A stretch of 38,677 nt of DNA from a virus. The DNA lies in IMG/VR virus record IMGVR_UViG_3300048587_000158, positions 1-38,677 of that record. One strand, given 5' to 3'. Position 1 is the stretch's first letter, and each line of letters opens with the position of its first letter. Positions 10,207 through 14,329 of this stretch are shown piece after piece. The notes beneath the pieces were generated by a model. The model had not been told where the DNA came from. It saw only the letters and a program-made list of their open reading frames with translations, and ran no database searches. The position numbers were made by a program, and so were the translations under genes.

Positions 10207-10542
10207 TCAGACCCCAAGACCCCGCCTGTACGGCATCAGCACCACTTCTGCGTTCTGCCGCATGCGCGCAGCCTTGTCCGGGTCCGGCTGCTCGTAGGCG
10301 GCCTGCACCAGAATCAGCACGCCCTTGGCGTAGCTGCGCGCCTCCGGGTCTTCGCTGCTCGGCACATCCTCGCTGCTGCTGTCGCTCGGGTAGTCGACTG
10401 GCAGCGTGGGCGCCTGAGTGCGATTGAGGAACCGAAGCGCCTCGTCTTCCGCCCGGTCGATCAGTTCCTGAATCAGTGTGTCATCGCCGGAGTGGATCAC
10501 CCGCAGCCAGCGCTTCGCCTCGGCAACGGTCACGGTGCTCAT
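10207..10542 (-). CDS. Head-tail connector (HK97 gp6-like), 111 aa
   Basis: Starts MSTVTVAEAKRWLRVIHSGDDTLIQ, the classical gp6/gp15-like connector N-terminus (helical, binds beneath the portal), followed by AEDEALRFLNR and a C-terminal AARMRQNAEVVLMPYRRGLGV, the family's R-x(n)-YR end. ATG overlaps the stop of the preceding gene (ATGA). The apparent longer frame to 11088 is antisense/out-of-frame to two other genes and is discarded. Confidence 0.87.
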   Translation of the reverse strand: MSTVTVAEAKRWLRVIHSGDDTLIQELIDRAEDEALRFLNRTQAPTLPVDYPSDSSSEDVPSSEDPEARSYAKGVLILVQAAYEQPDPDKAARMRQNAEVVLMPYRRGLGV

Positions 10543-11030
10543 TCGACGGTTGCTCCCGGAAGGTCCCAATAAATCGCGCTGTCGCGCACCAGCACCAGCG
10601 TCCCGCGCACGTAGTCGCCAACCTGCACGTCGTGTGAGATTTTCAGCACCTTCCCGAGAAACTCGGCACTGGTCGCGCCTGCGCTCACGATGCGCCCGTT
10701 GGTGACCGTGGTCGGCGCCGGCGTATCGCGACCGAATGCGACCAGGAACGAGGCCTGCACGCGCGCATCGCGCATGGCCATCAGTGCCTGGTGCGATGCC
10801 GACCGCGCGTCGAAGTTGTACGGGATGGTGATCTGCGCCGGGATGTGCGGCCCGATCGACCAGCTTGGCACGGCGCCATCTCTCAGGACGGCCTGCGCGT
10901 CGCTGTCGTCCAGTCCGGAGATTCCGGACGGGCACCTGATCTTGATGACCTCGACGCCCTCGGAGCTGCTGTAGAGCGGCGAGAGGTCTGTGGCTACATA
11001 GAGCCTTGTTCCCGCGGTCGCGAGCGTCAC
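10539..11030 (-). CDS. Second tail-tube-like protein, 163 aa
   Basis: GTG at 11030 overlaps the glycosyltransferase stop (GTGA). The protein shares the fold signature of the tail tube gene at 8262-8780: TAGTRLYVA versus TKGTKLYFG; IKIRCPSGISGL versus HKVACPTGVTGL; SASHQALMAMRD versus SEAHQALMAAED; VGDYVRGTLVL versus VGEYVRATVTV. Roughly a third of aligned residues look identical by eye. Its position, upstream of the connectors, is abnormal for a tube protein. It could be a minor tube, a neck ring or a decoration protein. Confidence 0.75.
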   Translation of the reverse strand: MTLATAGTRLYVATDLSPLYSSSEGVEVIKIRCPSGISGLDDSDAQAVLRDGAVPSWSIGPHIPAQITIPYNFDARSASHQALMAMRDARVQASFLVAFGRDTPAPTTVTNGRIVSAGATSAEFLGKVLKISHDVQVGDYVRGTLVLVRDSAIYWDLPGATVE

Positions 11031-11707
11031 AGGTACGCCTCCGCGTCTTCGCCGATCCACTCGCGCAGGATGCGGTGATCTGGGTCATGGGTGCCGCCCA
11101 TCTCGAGACTGTGACCGATGCCGATGCCGCCGCGTCCCGGAAGTCCCTTGATTCCAGTCACCTGCGTTCCGGCGAACAGGTGCCGGCTGTGCGCCTCGCG
11201 CCAGAGCTGCAGGTCGATGAACTTGTCCGCGCGCTTCAGGATGTGGCGCATCTCGTCGATTGCCGGGCCGCTGATCGCGGTCGAGCACAACGACGCGCGC
11301 TGCCCGTTCTCAAGCTGGCGCGCGATGCGGGCCGGCAAGTTGTAGTAGCGAGCCCGCGGCGTTCCGACAACATCGGCGCGCGGCGCATGCTTCGCGACCG
11401 CATCAAGCCACGTCGGCGCGTAGTGATCATCATCCTCGATGAACACTACGACATCCTCGCGCATGCAGGCGTCCAGTCCCTTGCTCAGGTTGCGCGCCTG
11501 AGTGTTCTGCCCATGCTGCCAGAACGGCGCCGGGCGGATCAGAACCAGTTCCCAGCCTGCGCGCCTGAACGTGATCGGCTGCGGCTCCTGGCCGTCGTCG
11601 ACGATCACCCAGCGCACAGGGCCGGCGTAGGTCTGCGCCATCATCCAACGCTCGCACAGCGCCCACGCTTCAGGTCGCGCGCCGGTTGCCGTCAGTAGCG
11701 TCAGCAT
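11027..11707 (-). CDS. Glycosyltransferase family 2-like protein, 226 aa
   Basis: N-terminus MLTLLTATGARPEAWALCERW followed by RWVIVDDGQEP, a GT-A nucleotide-binding start with DDG, and VVVFIEDDDHYAPTWLDAV, the DxD metal/UDP-sugar motif. Then ARYYNLPAR and a W-rich C-terminal half with HDPDH. The family moves a sugar from an NDP-donor to an acceptor. Overlaps the next gene by 4 nt. Placed in the capsid gene cluster, so it may decorate the virion or modify a host glycan (inference). Confidence 0.75.
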   Translation of the reverse strand: MLTLLTATGARPEAWALCERWMMAQTYAGPVRWVIVDDGQEPQPITFRRAGWELVLIRPAPFWQHGQNTQARNLSKGLDACMREDVVVFIEDDDHYAPTWLDAVAKHAPRADVVGTPRARYYNLPARIARQLENGQRASLCSTAISGPAIDEMRHILKRADKFIDLQLWREAHSRHLFAGTQVTGIKGLPGRGGIGIGHSLEMGGTHDPDHRILREWIGEDAEAYL

Positions 11708-12207
11708 GTCGTGCGCCAGTTGTAGTGGGTGAGCGCCCGGCTGTCGTAGCCCATCCGCGCCGTCTTTGCGATGGCAGCTATCAGCAACCCGTCGCCGTTG
11801 TACTTGTTCGGCAGCCGATGCCCGCCGATTGCGGATCTGCGCGCGACGAATTGCGCCGCATCAACGCGATCGACGACAGCGCACGGCGGCGCAACCTTGC
11901 TGCCGCGACGCTGCGCGAAGATCACTACATCAACGGGCCGGGCGTCGTACTCGGCAACCGCCTGCAACATTGCCGGCTCCAGCTTGTTGTCGTCGTCGCC
12001 GATCCACACCCAGCCCGGATCGGACCCCGGGATGCTGTCGAGCATCCGGTTCTTGACCGCCTGCCCGCCGACATACTGGCGCCCGATGTCGAAAGCGACG
12101 TGCCAGCGTAAGTCGATGCCTGCAAGTTGCGATGCGTCGGCCATCTCGGCCGCCCACGCCGGCAGAAACTCAGGCCGCGCGCAGGCTGTCAGGACGTGCA
12201 GGATCAC
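11701..12207 (-). CDS. GT-A fold glycosyltransferase-like protein, 168 aa
   Basis: GTG at 12207 overlaps the methyltransferase stop (GTGA). Reads VILHVLTACARPEFLPAW, then a W-V-W-I-G-DDD-N motif (DxD) and LPNKYNGDGLLIAAIAK. This is a small GT-A-like protein of the type found in phage structural cassettes. It lacks the C-terminal acceptor half of a full GT2, so it may act with its neighbour. Overlaps the following GT2-like gene by 7 nt. Confidence 0.6.
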   Translation of the reverse strand: MILHVLTACARPEFLPAWAAEMADASQLAGIDLRWHVAFDIGRQYVGGQAVKNRMLDSIPGSDPGWVWIGDDDNKLEPAMLQAVAEYDARPVDVVIFAQRRGSKVAPPCAVVDRVDAAQFVARRSAIGGHRLPNKYNGDGLLIAAIAKTARMGYDSRALTHYNWRTTC

Positions 12208-12797
12208 AGGTAGACAACCCCGATGCCGCCCCACTTGCCATTGCCAGCGATGATCTCGTCTGTGCGGTAGGCCGCTTTGATCTCAGCCCACAGCCGCGCG
12301 ACTTCGATCTCTGGGTGCGCAACCGGGTTGTCGACGATGTCGTGAAACGGCACGACTGCGCCTGGTGCGGCCAGTTCGCGATACGCCTCCCAGTCGGCGC
12401 GGGCCGCCTTGTATCGGTGATCGCCGTCAATCATCAACCAGTCGAAAGGCCCGTACTTTGCCGCTCGCGCGACGGTCTCCGCGCCGTGACTGTTGCCAGC
12501 AATAGCGACTACTTGCGCGCCAATTTCTGCCGCCCAGTCGCCGTATCGGTGCCGGTTGTCAGCAAACGGCATGTTGTACAAATCGACGCTGACGACAGTC
12601 GCGCCGGGTTGAGCGCGCCGGATGAACTGCTTCAATGTGCCGCCGAAGTAGCTGCCGACCTCGAGGACGCGCGCCGGCTGCCGATGTTCGTAAAGCGCGA
12701 GCATCCACTCCATCTCGGCAGGATGTTGGAATACCGGAACCTCGGCGTCGCCGTCTGTCCAGTAGACGCACTTCTGGTCCTGCTTCGGGTGATTCAT
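12204..12797 (-). CDS. Class I SAM-dependent methyltransferase-like protein, 197 aa
   Basis: Residues 43-55 RVLEVGSYFGGTL form SAM motif I (E-x-G-x(3)-G); VVSVDLYN gives motif II with the acidic ribose-binding Asp; FDWLMIDGDHRYKAARADW is the typical motif IV/post-IV of the Methyltransf_24 group, with DGDH. Ends in PFHDIVDNP. Acceptor unknown. ATG overlaps the preceding gene (ATGA). The fold is also used for sugar and macrolide O-methylation, which fits the glycosyltransferases alongside. Confidence 0.8.
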   Translation of the reverse strand: MNHPKQDQKCVYWTDGDAEVPVFQHPAEMEWMLALYEHRQPARVLEVGSYFGGTLKQFIRRAQPGATVVSVDLYNMPFADNRHRYGDWAAEIGAQVVAIAGNSHGAETVARAAKYGPFDWLMIDGDHRYKAARADWEAYRELAAPGAVVPFHDIVDNPVAHPEIEVARLWAEIKAAYRTDEIIAGNGKWGGIGVVYL

Positions 12798-13378
12798 GCT
12801 CTCGCCAATTCCTGTTCAAGATCACCGCGCGGGAAGCATTCGAGCCTCGTCGAGCGCGTGCAGTTGATGACTTCAACGCCGAGGCGCGCGAGGTGCGCGG
12901 CGCACTTGGCGAAGCGTTCGGGCCACTCGTTGACGCTCTTGGCGTTGCCCAGCTCCGGCGGGTGATCGCCGTGGCTGTGCGTCTTGCCGCCGGTGTACTG
13001 GCAGTCATAGCCAACCATCAGAATCCGGCGCGCGCCGAAGTGCGCAGCCAGCGCCAGCGCGGCCGTTCCTGAGTTCGAGAAATGCGGCGACGGCGCTTCC
13101 TTCGCGCCGGGCCTGCGCTTGCCGCTAAATGCCTCGCCGGGAAAGCTGGCGATCACGTCGCGTGCGTAGCGCTTCCACCATGGCGCGTCCAGCGCGTAGA
13201 GCGCATCCGCCCACGGCGCCGACTGAAACATGGTGTTGGTGACGACTACTCCGCGGCGGCCCGCTTGCTGCGCTTCTTCTTCGGTTCGCCATCGTCGGAT
13301 GCGGGCGATGTCGTCTGCGGTGCAGCTGGGGCCGCTTGCGATGCAGACGGCGACTCGCCAGCGGTTTGGGCCAAAGGG
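12794..13378 (-). CDS. DUF115-like protein, copy 2, reached by -1 frameshift
   Basis: The conserved segment WRVAVCIASGPSCTADD lies upstream of the only in-frame ATG (13231), yet the open frame (from 13492) has no ATG, GTG, TTG or CTG before it. Joined to the overlapping gene 13246-13515 by a -1 shift at C CCT TTG (13378-13372), it would give a product of about 240 aa. Visible features are the GPS motif, APWADALYALD, WWKRY, FSNSGTAALALA, GARRILMVGYDCQ, GDH and a C-terminal ECFPR. These recall the DUF115/MptE-like family (sugar or pterin transfer), but the assignment is uncertain. A 133-145-aa protein starting at the internal ATG is the alternative. Confidence 0.6.
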   Translation of the reverse strand, partial: PFGPNRWRVAVCIASGPSCTADDIARIRRWRTEEEAQQAGRRGVVVTNTMFQSAPWADALYALDAPWWKRYARDVIASFPGEAFSGKRRPGAKEAPSPHFSNSGTAALALAAHFGARRILMVGYDCQYTGGKTHSHGDHPPELGNAKSVNEWPERFAKCAAHLARLGVEVINCTRSTRLECFPRGDLEQELARA

Positions 13379-13515
13379 GCGGCGGGGTTTCCGCCGAAAG
13401 CGACGAGCCCTTTCTCCCGCAGATCGCGCGCCAAGGTGCTGGTGATGTTGAGCTGCTGGCCGCCGCGTACCTTGCGGCCGTTGTGGGCGAACTCAGCGGT
13501 TACCGTAACGATCAT
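13246..13515 (-). CDS. Small capsid-adjacent protein, copy 2, 89 aa
   Basis: ATG at 13515 overlaps the stop of the preceding gene (ATGA). N-terminal half MIVTVTAEFAHNGRKVRGGQQLNI resembles the small proteins encoded just after phage capsids (FxHNGxxxxxGxxxxI). After residue 45 it becomes Ala/Ser/Pro-rich and ends in a basic tail (KKKRSKRAAAE). Same arrangement as 13961-14266. The C-terminal half overlaps the conserved start of the DUF115-like frame, so one stretch of DNA is read in two frames. Function unknown. Confidence 0.6.
   Translation of the reverse strand: MIVTVTAEFAHNGRKVRGGQQLNITSTLARDLREKGLVAFGGNPAAPLAQTAGESPSASQAAPAAPQTTSPASDDGEPKKKRSKRAAAE
13372..13378 (-). promoter_or_regulatory. 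Candidate -1 ribosomal slippery heptamer
   Basis: On the minus strand the bases read C CCT TTG, with zero-frame codons CCT TTG (residues 47-48 of the small gene) and -1 codons CCC TTT. This matches the X XXY YYZ pattern and lies directly before the start of the conserved DUF115-like frame. In copy 1 the equivalent position is C CCT ACC, which matches only at the first codon. A 3' stem is not obvious. Confidence 0.5.
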
Positions 13516-14099
13516 GAATCCTCCAATGCCTGCTCCAGCGCCATGCGCGGGAAGCAGGTAAGTGCTGTCTGGCGCGATGCGTTGATAACCGACACACCCT
13601 GTCTCCGGATGTCGGCGGCCAGCTTACGGAACTGTTCCGGCCACTTCGGCAGGCTTCCAGCGTTTCCGAGTTGCTTGATGTGGTCGCCGTGCCAGTGCGA
13701 CATGCCGCCCGTGCGCTGGCAGTCAAAGCCGACCATGACGATCCTGCGCGCGCCGCGAGCTGCTGCGAGCGAGATCGCCGCGGCCCCGCTGTTGCTGTAG
13801 TGCCTGACGGCGCCGATGCTGTTGACTGCGCGCACCGGCGCAGCCGAAACGCGCTCCCCACCGAATCCGGCCAGGACGGCGCTTGCGTAGATTGACCACC
13901 ATTTCCCATCCATCGCAAACAGCAGGTCAGCCCATGGGCACAGCTGCCATGTGTTGTTGGTTACGAAGACTCCGCGGCCTTCTTCCGCTTGTCCCGCTTC
14001 GCCTTGCCCACGCCATCGCCTGACGAGATCGCAGTCGTCCGCGGTGAGGCTTGGGCCGCTTGCGATGCAGACGACAGTCCGCCAGCGGCCTCGGTAGGG
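13512..14099 (-). CDS. DUF115-like protein, copy 1, reached by -1 frameshift
   Basis: Paralogue of 12794-13378: WRTVVCIASGPSLTADD, CPWADLLFAMDGKWW, SNSGAAAISLA, GARRIVMVGFDCQ, GDH, LTCFPR. As in the other copy the conserved N-terminal segment precedes the first usable ATG (13913), and between the upstream stop (14126) and it I find no ATG, GTG or TTG. It must be read by -1 frameshift out of the gene 13961-14266, giving about 250 aa, or it is silent apart from the 133-aa product from ATG 13913. Slip site unclear (C CCT ACC at 14099-14093 is only partial). Confidence 0.6.
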   Translation of the reverse strand, partial: PYRGRWRTVVCIASGPSLTADDCDLVRRWRGQGEAGQAEEGRGVFVTNNTWQLCPWADLLFAMDGKWWSIYASAVLAGFGGERVSAAPVRAVNSIGAVRHYSNSGAAAISLAAARGARRIVMVGFDCQRTGGMSHWHGDHIKQLGNAGSLPKWPEQFRKLAADIRRQGVSVINASRQTALTCFPRMALEQALEDS

Positions 14100-14266
14100 G
14101 TCCCTTTGTTTTCCGGAGATCCGCTAATCGCCATGACCTCGCGCACCATGCGGTTACGGCACAGCTCGTCGATGTAGGAGCCCTCGCCCTCGATCCGCTC
14201 GTTCATACGAACAATCTTGCGATTGTCGGATCGCCGGAACGTCCTGAGACAAATTGCTGACTTCAT
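13961..14266 (-). CDS. Small capsid-adjacent protein, copy 1, 101 aa
   Basis: ATG 14266 (MKSAICLRTFRR) follows the terminator at 14284-14303; the apparent longer frame to 14308 only translates the terminator, so it is rejected. Similar organisation to 13246-13515, notably the tail: LSSASQAAQASPRTT versus SPSASQAAPAAPQTT and the basic ends KAKRDKRKKAAES versus KKKRSKRAAAE. The N-terminal 45 residues differ. Function unknown; it lies in the first position after the capsid gene. Confidence 0.55.
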   Translation of the reverse strand: MKSAICLRTFRRSDNRKIVRMNERIEGEGSYIDELCRNRMVREVMAISGSPENKGTPTEAAGGLSSASQAAQASPRTTAISSGDGVGKAKRDKRKKAAESS

Positions 14267-14270
14267 GCCG

Positions 14271-14303
14271 CCCCCAAAAGAGAGGGCGGCCGAAGCCGCC
14301 CCC
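14271..14303 (-). terminator. Rho-independent terminator after major capsid gene
   Basis: On the minus strand the transcript would read GGGCGGC-TTCG-GCCGCCC followed by TCTCTTTT: a 7-bp GC stem (extended by further G-C pairs), an extra-stable UUCG tetraloop and a T-rich tract. It sits 27 bases after the capsid stop, before the modification cassette. Probably partial, keeping capsid mRNA high relative to the genes after it. Confidence 0.75.
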
Positions 14304-14329
14304 TTCATTCACTGCTGATGCTCGGTCGG

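Follow-up and report, generated by a model that had tools for sequence, protein, structure and literature searches.

The window analysed here is the whole of a 38,677-nucleotide viral sequence (IMG/VR record IMGVR_UViG_3300048587_000158). It carries two DUF115-like genes behind its major capsid gene, and neither has a start codon ahead of its conserved beginning. This introduces the question of how such genes can be translated. They belong to a cassette between the capsid gene and the connector, whose genes all lie on the minus strand, as do the late genes of this 38.7-kb record. A sequence-only reading had placed two DUF115-like proteins, an S-adenosylmethionine (SAM)-dependent methyltransferase (MTase) and two GT-A-type glycosyltransferase-like proteins (here GT1 and GT2) in this interval, and profile matches together with a structural model of GT1 confirmed this gene content. 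However, both DUF115 open reading frames (ORFs) had been cut short at the N-terminus, and two overlapping small ORFs (14266-13961 and 13515-13246) belong to the feature as well. From the sequence evidence described below, we propose that programmed -1 frameshifting probably yields a fusion of a small protein with a glycosyltransferase, which would serve in glycosylation of the virion.

Reading the window in three frames revealed the conserved motifs RTVVCIASGPSLTADD and RVAVCIASGPSCTADD in frame upstream of the two called DUF115 ORFs (13913-13512 and 13231-12794). As called, the ORFs lack the N-terminal 56 and 42 residues, that is, the conserved VCIASGPS beginning, which is the first strand of the predicted fold. 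In copy a, an in-frame TAG lies 14 codons upstream of the motif, and no ATG, GTG or TTG follows until residue 56. In copy b, the in-frame stop lies 45 codons upstream, none of ATG, GTG, TTG, CTG, ATT, ATC or ATA occurs between this stop and the motif, and the next in-frame start is found 42 codons downstream of the motif. The end of a small ORF covers the DUF115 beginning in both copies, in the +1 relative frame, so that a -1 shift is needed to enter the DUF115 frame. Small ORF a had no family match of its own and aligns with the small-ORF family; an alternative, longer form starts at 14308, ahead of the terminator-like hairpin that follows the capsid gene. The start of small ORF b overlaps the DUF115a stop (ATGA). 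Sequencing error or misassembly was considered and ruled out, because the same frames occur in independent assemblies: contigs L003/L004 (L060/L061) do not differ from each other, and the frames are shared by L062, L063 and many others.

The simplest alternative would be that the DUF115 proteins are made short from the internal ATGs at 13913 and 13231, with the upstream motif left untranslated, as in most database annotations. Gene callers do pick internal starts of this kind, and most of the records of D3-like Pseudomonas phages (L152-L158) start the gene 50 codons inside the domain. We regard this as very unlikely, because protein conservation in the upstream stretch extends across 35-50% identity and its variation falls at third positions of the DUF frame. 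In the predicted fold it also supplies strand 1, helix A and strand 2, it holds the invariant residues G9 and S11, and neither ATG has a clear Shine-Dalgarno sequence.

We also collected relatives to see how widely this layout occurs. DUF115 relatives were found in D3-like Pseudomonas phages, PAJU2, P1 (pmgO), jumbo phages and more than 100 viral contigs, and a scan of bacterial genomes gave two loci. The set comprised 111 distinct matches, 45 with an overlapping +1-frame small ORF and 66 without; in most of the 66 the start is normal and the +1 frame is closed. Of the 45 overlap loci, 35 lack ATG, GTG and TTG within 30 codons; these 35 form 21 clusters at 60% identity, and the small ORF is in the same relative frame in all such overlap loci, again needing a -1 shift. 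Start codons are depleted in the DUF frame (15 of 1085 codons; the other frames have 48 and 39), and the 10 overlap loci that do have a start compare with 21.9 +/- 3.1 after shuffling. The no-start layout adjoins the capsid gene, within 489 nt in 26 of the 30 such loci that have a capsid match, and no normal-start locus lies within 790 nt of a capsid gene. A separate observation is that a further DUF115 gene, a more distant one with a start codon of its own, stands behind the frameshift-type gene in L141 (3311-3928), L074, L076, L090 and L110.

If ribosomes enter the DUF115 frame by slippage, then a slippery sequence would be expected in the frame of the small ORF. We scanned the zone between the DUF-frame stop and the motif in the 45 overlap loci for perfect X_XXY_YYZ heptamers. 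They occurred in the small-ORF frame in 34 loci, versus 13 and 11 in the other frames, and codon-shuffled zones gave 10.4 +/- 2.6 loci with a heptamer (maximum 18 in 300 shuffles). The rate was 0.033 per codon in the zone versus 0.004 elsewhere in the small ORF, an eightfold difference. With one no-start locus per cluster, a heptamer was present in 17.3 of 21, versus 8.8 and 6.6 for the other frames. The commonest were A_AAA_AAG (9), C_CCU_UUG (7) and A_AAA_AAA (6). It has been reported that A_AAA_AAG, C_CCU_UUG and C_CCA_AAG are shifty in Escherichia coli without a stimulator, with C_CCA_AAG among the most efficient (PMC4066793); this last heptamer is present in D3 and eight relatives. The C_CCU_UUG of copy b is kept as CCCTTTGG in L062 and L063b, and the neighbouring bases vary.

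The frame under constraint changes at the same place. In the D3-like phages, variable columns before the heptamer numbered 17/4/1 at small-ORF positions 3/1/2, and those within the overlap 6/3/12 at DUF positions 1/2/3; around the heptamer, from about -41 to +9, no column varies. In the window's own group (group A) the counts were 21/12/7 before the heptamer versus 1/1/10 in the overlap. This switch of codon position from the small-ORF frame to the DUF frame, compared as 17:1 versus 6:12 in the D3-like phages and as 21:7 versus 1:10 in group A, gave a Fisher p of 0.0003 in both sets. Past the motif, many loci retain a basic small-ORF tail (RRGRPPK-like), a sign that both frames of this doubly coding stretch may be in use.

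These observations bear on two other ways of entering the DUF115 frame. One is a non-standard start codon or re-initiation in place of slippage, which would fit the GTG or TTG that D3-like phages retain 14 codons upstream and the near-cognate codons present in nine of the 35 no-start loci. The remaining 26, copy b of the window included, have neither a canonical nor a near-cognate codon in the zone, and such initiation would leave the frame-specific heptamers unexplained; we therefore consider it improbable. The other is a shift during transcription, through slippage of RNA polymerase on A-runs. Runs of 7-9 A are indeed found in the group D relatives, but CCCTTTG (window) and CCCAAAG (D3-like phages) contain no long homopolymer and the enrichment is specific to the X_XXY_YYZ phase, so that this possibility seems highly improbable.

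Several points weigh against frameshifting as the explanation. The site in copy a, CCCTACC, is an imperfect X_XXY_YYZ, that of L064 is likewise degenerate (CCCTGGC), and the group C relatives have no heptamer at a place common to them. The hairpin that follows the slip site does not stand out in the window (z -0.85 and 0.4), and over all loci a stimulatory hairpin is only weakly enriched (p 0.05). In the D3-like phages, the GTG/TTG 14 codons upstream could be a start, with no obvious Shine-Dalgarno sequence. The invariant block of these phages begins 23 bases before the heptamer, next to this codon, so that an upstream start is conceivable there. In addition, the relatedness of the loci inflates the counts given above. 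Finally, the P1 relatives pmgO, P and Q (pmgO with a normal ATG) were reported to be nonessential (PMC10695390), and the function may therefore be conditional. As to the hairpin, it is strong in L062 (z -4.5) and L063 (z -3.3), and a general stimulatory hairpin at all loci was supported in a subset only.

The missing start codons and the degenerate slip site of copy a could also mean that the start-less DUF115 genes are decaying pseudogenes. This is hardly credible, given that long open frames and conserved motif residues are maintained across 21 clusters, that the start-less layout recurs in unrelated phages, and that variation in the DUF frame falls at third positions.

What would the fusion do? 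DUF115b, modelled from the conserved motif with AlphaFold2, gave a predicted local distance difference test (pLDDT) score of 94.8, and the motif missing from the called ORF makes up the first strand of the model. Its structural matches were Maf 5mu5 (Z 14.9, 164 aligned), CstII (Z 12.2), CstI (Z about 12) and MptE 8sd5 (Z 10.9), all above unrelated structures. The fold is shared over most of the domain, in keeping with a Maf/GT42/MptE-like structural superfamily. The family phrog_4603 ('alpha-2,3-sialyltransferase') covers DUF115b residues 6-185, and all 56 aligned members match. Against PF01973 (MptE-like/DUF115), DUF115b itself stayed below the curated cutoff (18.4 versus 34.6 bits), and 21 of 23 relatives matched weakly (best 2.8e-7). 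The conserved residues of the family are G, S, N, NSG, D and H.

The remaining enzymes are of a similar kind. The MTase matched PF13578 (1e-13) at 52.5 bits, above the curated cutoff of 26.3, RMNT_CmcI at 1.8e-4, slightly below cutoff, and O-methyltransferases in the PDB at 3.8e-4; its counterpart in L063 is 69% identical, and among annotated phages only two records matched, both unannotated. GT1 had no family match by sequence, and its GT-A fold comes from the model (pLDDT 83.4), which resembles TarS (Z 13.1), TarP (Z 12.9) and WrtF (Z 12.9); its relatives are in L148, L149 and L150. The GT2 protein of the window fell just under the PF00535 cutoff (22.0 versus 23.3 bits), seven of its 11 relatives match that family (best 3.1e-14), and EDDD is invariant in the alignment. 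Neither GT1 nor GT2 matched anything in annotated phages. As a side observation, L148 (269-1909) carries relatives of the MTase and GT1 (62-63%) separated by a 138-aa protein, within different gene surroundings. Fold and family thus support a glycan-building role for the predicted cassette proteins, and sialyltransferase activity is putative.

The sequence-only reading had seen a sugar-modification cassette interrupting the conserved order of capsid and connector genes. Its view of a set that builds and methylates a sugar gained support from the Maf/CstII-like, GT-A and O-methyltransferase-like assignments, but it overlooked that the DUF115 genes are start-less and apparently depend on frameshifting. 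The location also holds, but it is not an exceptional interruption, since a DUF115 gene at this capsid-adjacent place is common in D3-like phages and many contigs. A search for the cassette in related phages, which that reading had suggested, found all five genes in an independent phage contig, IMGVR 3300049811_000124, with identities of 58% and 67% for DUF115, 69% for the MTase, 63-75% for GT1 and 78% for GT2. The capsid proteins are only 25% identical, and the set therefore behaves as a module. GT2 relatives also stand beside DUF115 in many loci. As a cassette it is fairly ordinary, because D3-like phages and P1 have comparable genes.

We picture the expression of this module as follows. A late operon of tightly overlapping genes, which follows the capsid gene and an intrinsic terminator, would build, and probably methylate, a glycan. 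It would open with two tandem modules, each a zero-frame small gene that ends inside a start-less, -1-frame domain of DUF115/Maf/GT42 fold. Near the small-gene end a fraction of ribosomes would slip back one base (on C_CCU_UUG in copy b, and on A_AAA_AAG or C_CCA_AAG in relatives), a slip that, like its rate, we infer from the pattern of frames and heptamers. The slipped product would join the small-protein N-terminal domain to the glycosyltransferase domain, giving about 240 aa for copy b (48 small-ORF residues, then 192), and unslipped ribosomes would complete the small protein with its basic tail. The genes of the window overlap by ATGA, ATGA, GTGA and ATGCTGA, and such stop/start overlaps suggest translational coupling. 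Ribosomes in the shifted frame would reach these 4-7-base overlaps to small gene b, the MTase, GT1 and GT2, so that the slip may also set the expression of the remaining genes.

The sequence-only reading had left two targets, the virion and the sugars of the host surface. Phage-borne glycosyltransferases often act on O-antigen, and a change of the host surface (superinfection exclusion or serotype conversion) would also agree with the reported dispensability of the P1 relatives in laboratory infection (PMC10695390). We think this target rather unlikely, although it has a real chance of being right: the cassette sits inside the head operon, from capsid to connector, in many phages, and no membrane partner was noticed next to it. 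A position within the late head operon accords better with modification of the phage particle itself. The cassette would most likely serve to glycosylate a protein of the virion surface, guided by the small domain. We infer this role of the fusion, which would bring the enzyme to the particle and its still hypothetical sugar to a virion protein as acceptor, from the operon place and by analogy with known virion glycosylation. Precedent for phages glycosylating their capsid and tail tube with their own glycosyltransferases is given in PMC12363180, where Freeman et al. 2023 is cited for it.

Features of the capsid-connector interval in the window, from the capsid gene to the connector.
Feature	Position	Strand	Evidence or remark
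Major capsid gene, HK97-type	15583-14330	-	PF05065 1.8e-48
Intrinsic-terminator-like hairpin, GGGGGCGGC-TTCG-GCCGCCC then TCTCTTTT	14271..14304	-	Between capsid gene and cassette
Small ORF a (zero frame)	13961..14266	-	Layout as small ORF b, basic C-terminal tail; overlaps DUF115a start
Degenerate slip site C_CCU_ACC	14093..14099	-	In small ORF a; relative L063a has CCCTTTG there
DUF115a domain, full length from motif RTVVCIASGPSLT	13512..14081	-	phrog_4603 6.7e-40 (truncated ORF)
Small ORF b, 89 aa	13246..13515	-	phrog_7993 1.5e-7; GGAGG Shine-Dalgarno; basic tail
Second perfect heptamer A_AAC_CCC	13384..13390	-	Small ORF b frame, 12 bases before C_CCU_UUG; not conserved in relatives
Slippery heptamer C_CCU_UUG	13372..13378	-	Small ORF b frame
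DUF115b domain, full length from RVAVCIASGPSCT	12794..13357	-	phrog_4603 1.4e-42 (truncated ORF), 2.9e-47 (full length)
SAM-dependent MTase, O-methyltransferase-like	12204..12797	-	Start overlaps DUF115b stop (ATGA)
GT1, small GT-A-fold glycosyltransferase-like protein, IGDDDN motif	11701..12207	-	GTGA overlap with MTase stop
GT2, GT-A (GT2 family) glycosyltransferase-like protein, EDDDxY motif	11027..11707	-	PF00535 1.7e-4
Tail-tube-like protein	10539..11030	-	PF16460 1.6e-14; between cassette and connector, possibly outside cassette
Connector	10572-10207	-	phrog_40 1.6e-13

Some neighbouring features deserve description. The terminator-like hairpin has a fold of -20.4 kcal/mol; a pattern scan did not list it, and an Rfam search of the window gave no match. 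Of 29 loci tested, the window among them, 22 have a comparable hairpin and T-run ahead of the small ORF, and the PMG1 record annotates a terminator at the corresponding place. The tail-tube-like protein next to the cassette is a paralog (32-34% identical) of a second such protein at 8870-8262, is absent from the corresponding place in relative L150, and might be a decoration protein. Contig L147 comes from a metagenome that also yielded two other near-identical contigs. It matches the window exactly on either side of 11230-10250, but over this interval of about 1 kb (GT2 end, tail-tube-like protein and connector start) it is only 61-86% identical, through either a local swap of alleles or an assembly chimera. 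The probable tail assembly chaperone gene (8261-7400) has a second ORF in the +1/-2 frame and no X_XXY_YYZ heptamer in this region, and is therefore unusable as an internal positive control.

Taken more broadly, we tentatively suggest, as a proposal that may well prove wrong, a so far undescribed recoding module, widespread among tailed phages. In it, programmed -1 frameshifting would graft a Maf/sialyltransferase-like domain onto a small capsid-region protein, a fixed minor share of which would carry the enzyme to the particle, and the slip would also control translation of the coupled glycan operon. A search of open-licence papers found no description of this frameshift, although it could have overlooked older work or papers behind a subscription. 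In many records these enzymes have lost their nucleotide-binding start in the annotation or are missing from it altogether, as in phi1 (L155), so that the family is misread in D3-like phages and dozens of environmental phages. If the slip is true, then it represents a new use of recoding, in which an enzyme is attached to a morphogenesis-region protein at a fixed ratio, and it offers a direct handle on virion glycosylation, which affects the recognition of phages by antibodies (PMC12363180).

Among known systems, the closest is orf6.5/orf7 of Pseudomonas phage D3 (also PMG1, phi1, FBPa47 and others), in which a small ORF directly behind the capsid gene likewise overlaps the DUF115 start in another frame. 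The DUF115 gene there is 46-49% identical to that of the window, slippery C_CCA_AAG lies at the corresponding place, and an MTase follows downstream, together with a GT9-like gene; the D3-like phage records examined annotate no frameshift. However, these phages have one DUF115 copy, a different MTase, no GT1 or GT2, and an upstream GTG/TTG as an alternative start. In phage P1 (pmgO-pmgP-ppp-pmgQ), the DUF115 relative is pmgO (33%), with pmgP and the glycosyltransferase gene pmgQ as neighbours, and the small gene pmgN overlaps the start of pmgO, but pmgO has an ordinary ATG and does not stand behind the capsid gene. The Maf flagellin glycosyltransferase 5mu5 and the GT42 enzymes CstI/CstII share the fold of the DUF115 domain at 11-15% identity; unlike the proposed DUF115 fusion, Maf and CstII are not known to arise by frameshifting. 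Known programmed -1 frameshifting in phages (lambda G-GT, the T3/T7 capsid extensions and Ig-like domains; PMC5009743) similarly yields a minor, C-terminally extended protein of the morphogenesis region, whereas the part added here would be a complete glycosyltransferase-like domain, of which we found no description. Lastly, the capsid and tail-tube glycosylation of mycobacteriophages, as PMC12363180 presents it with reference to Freeman et al. 2023, is alike in that phage glycosyltransferases act on virion proteins, a likeness of role.

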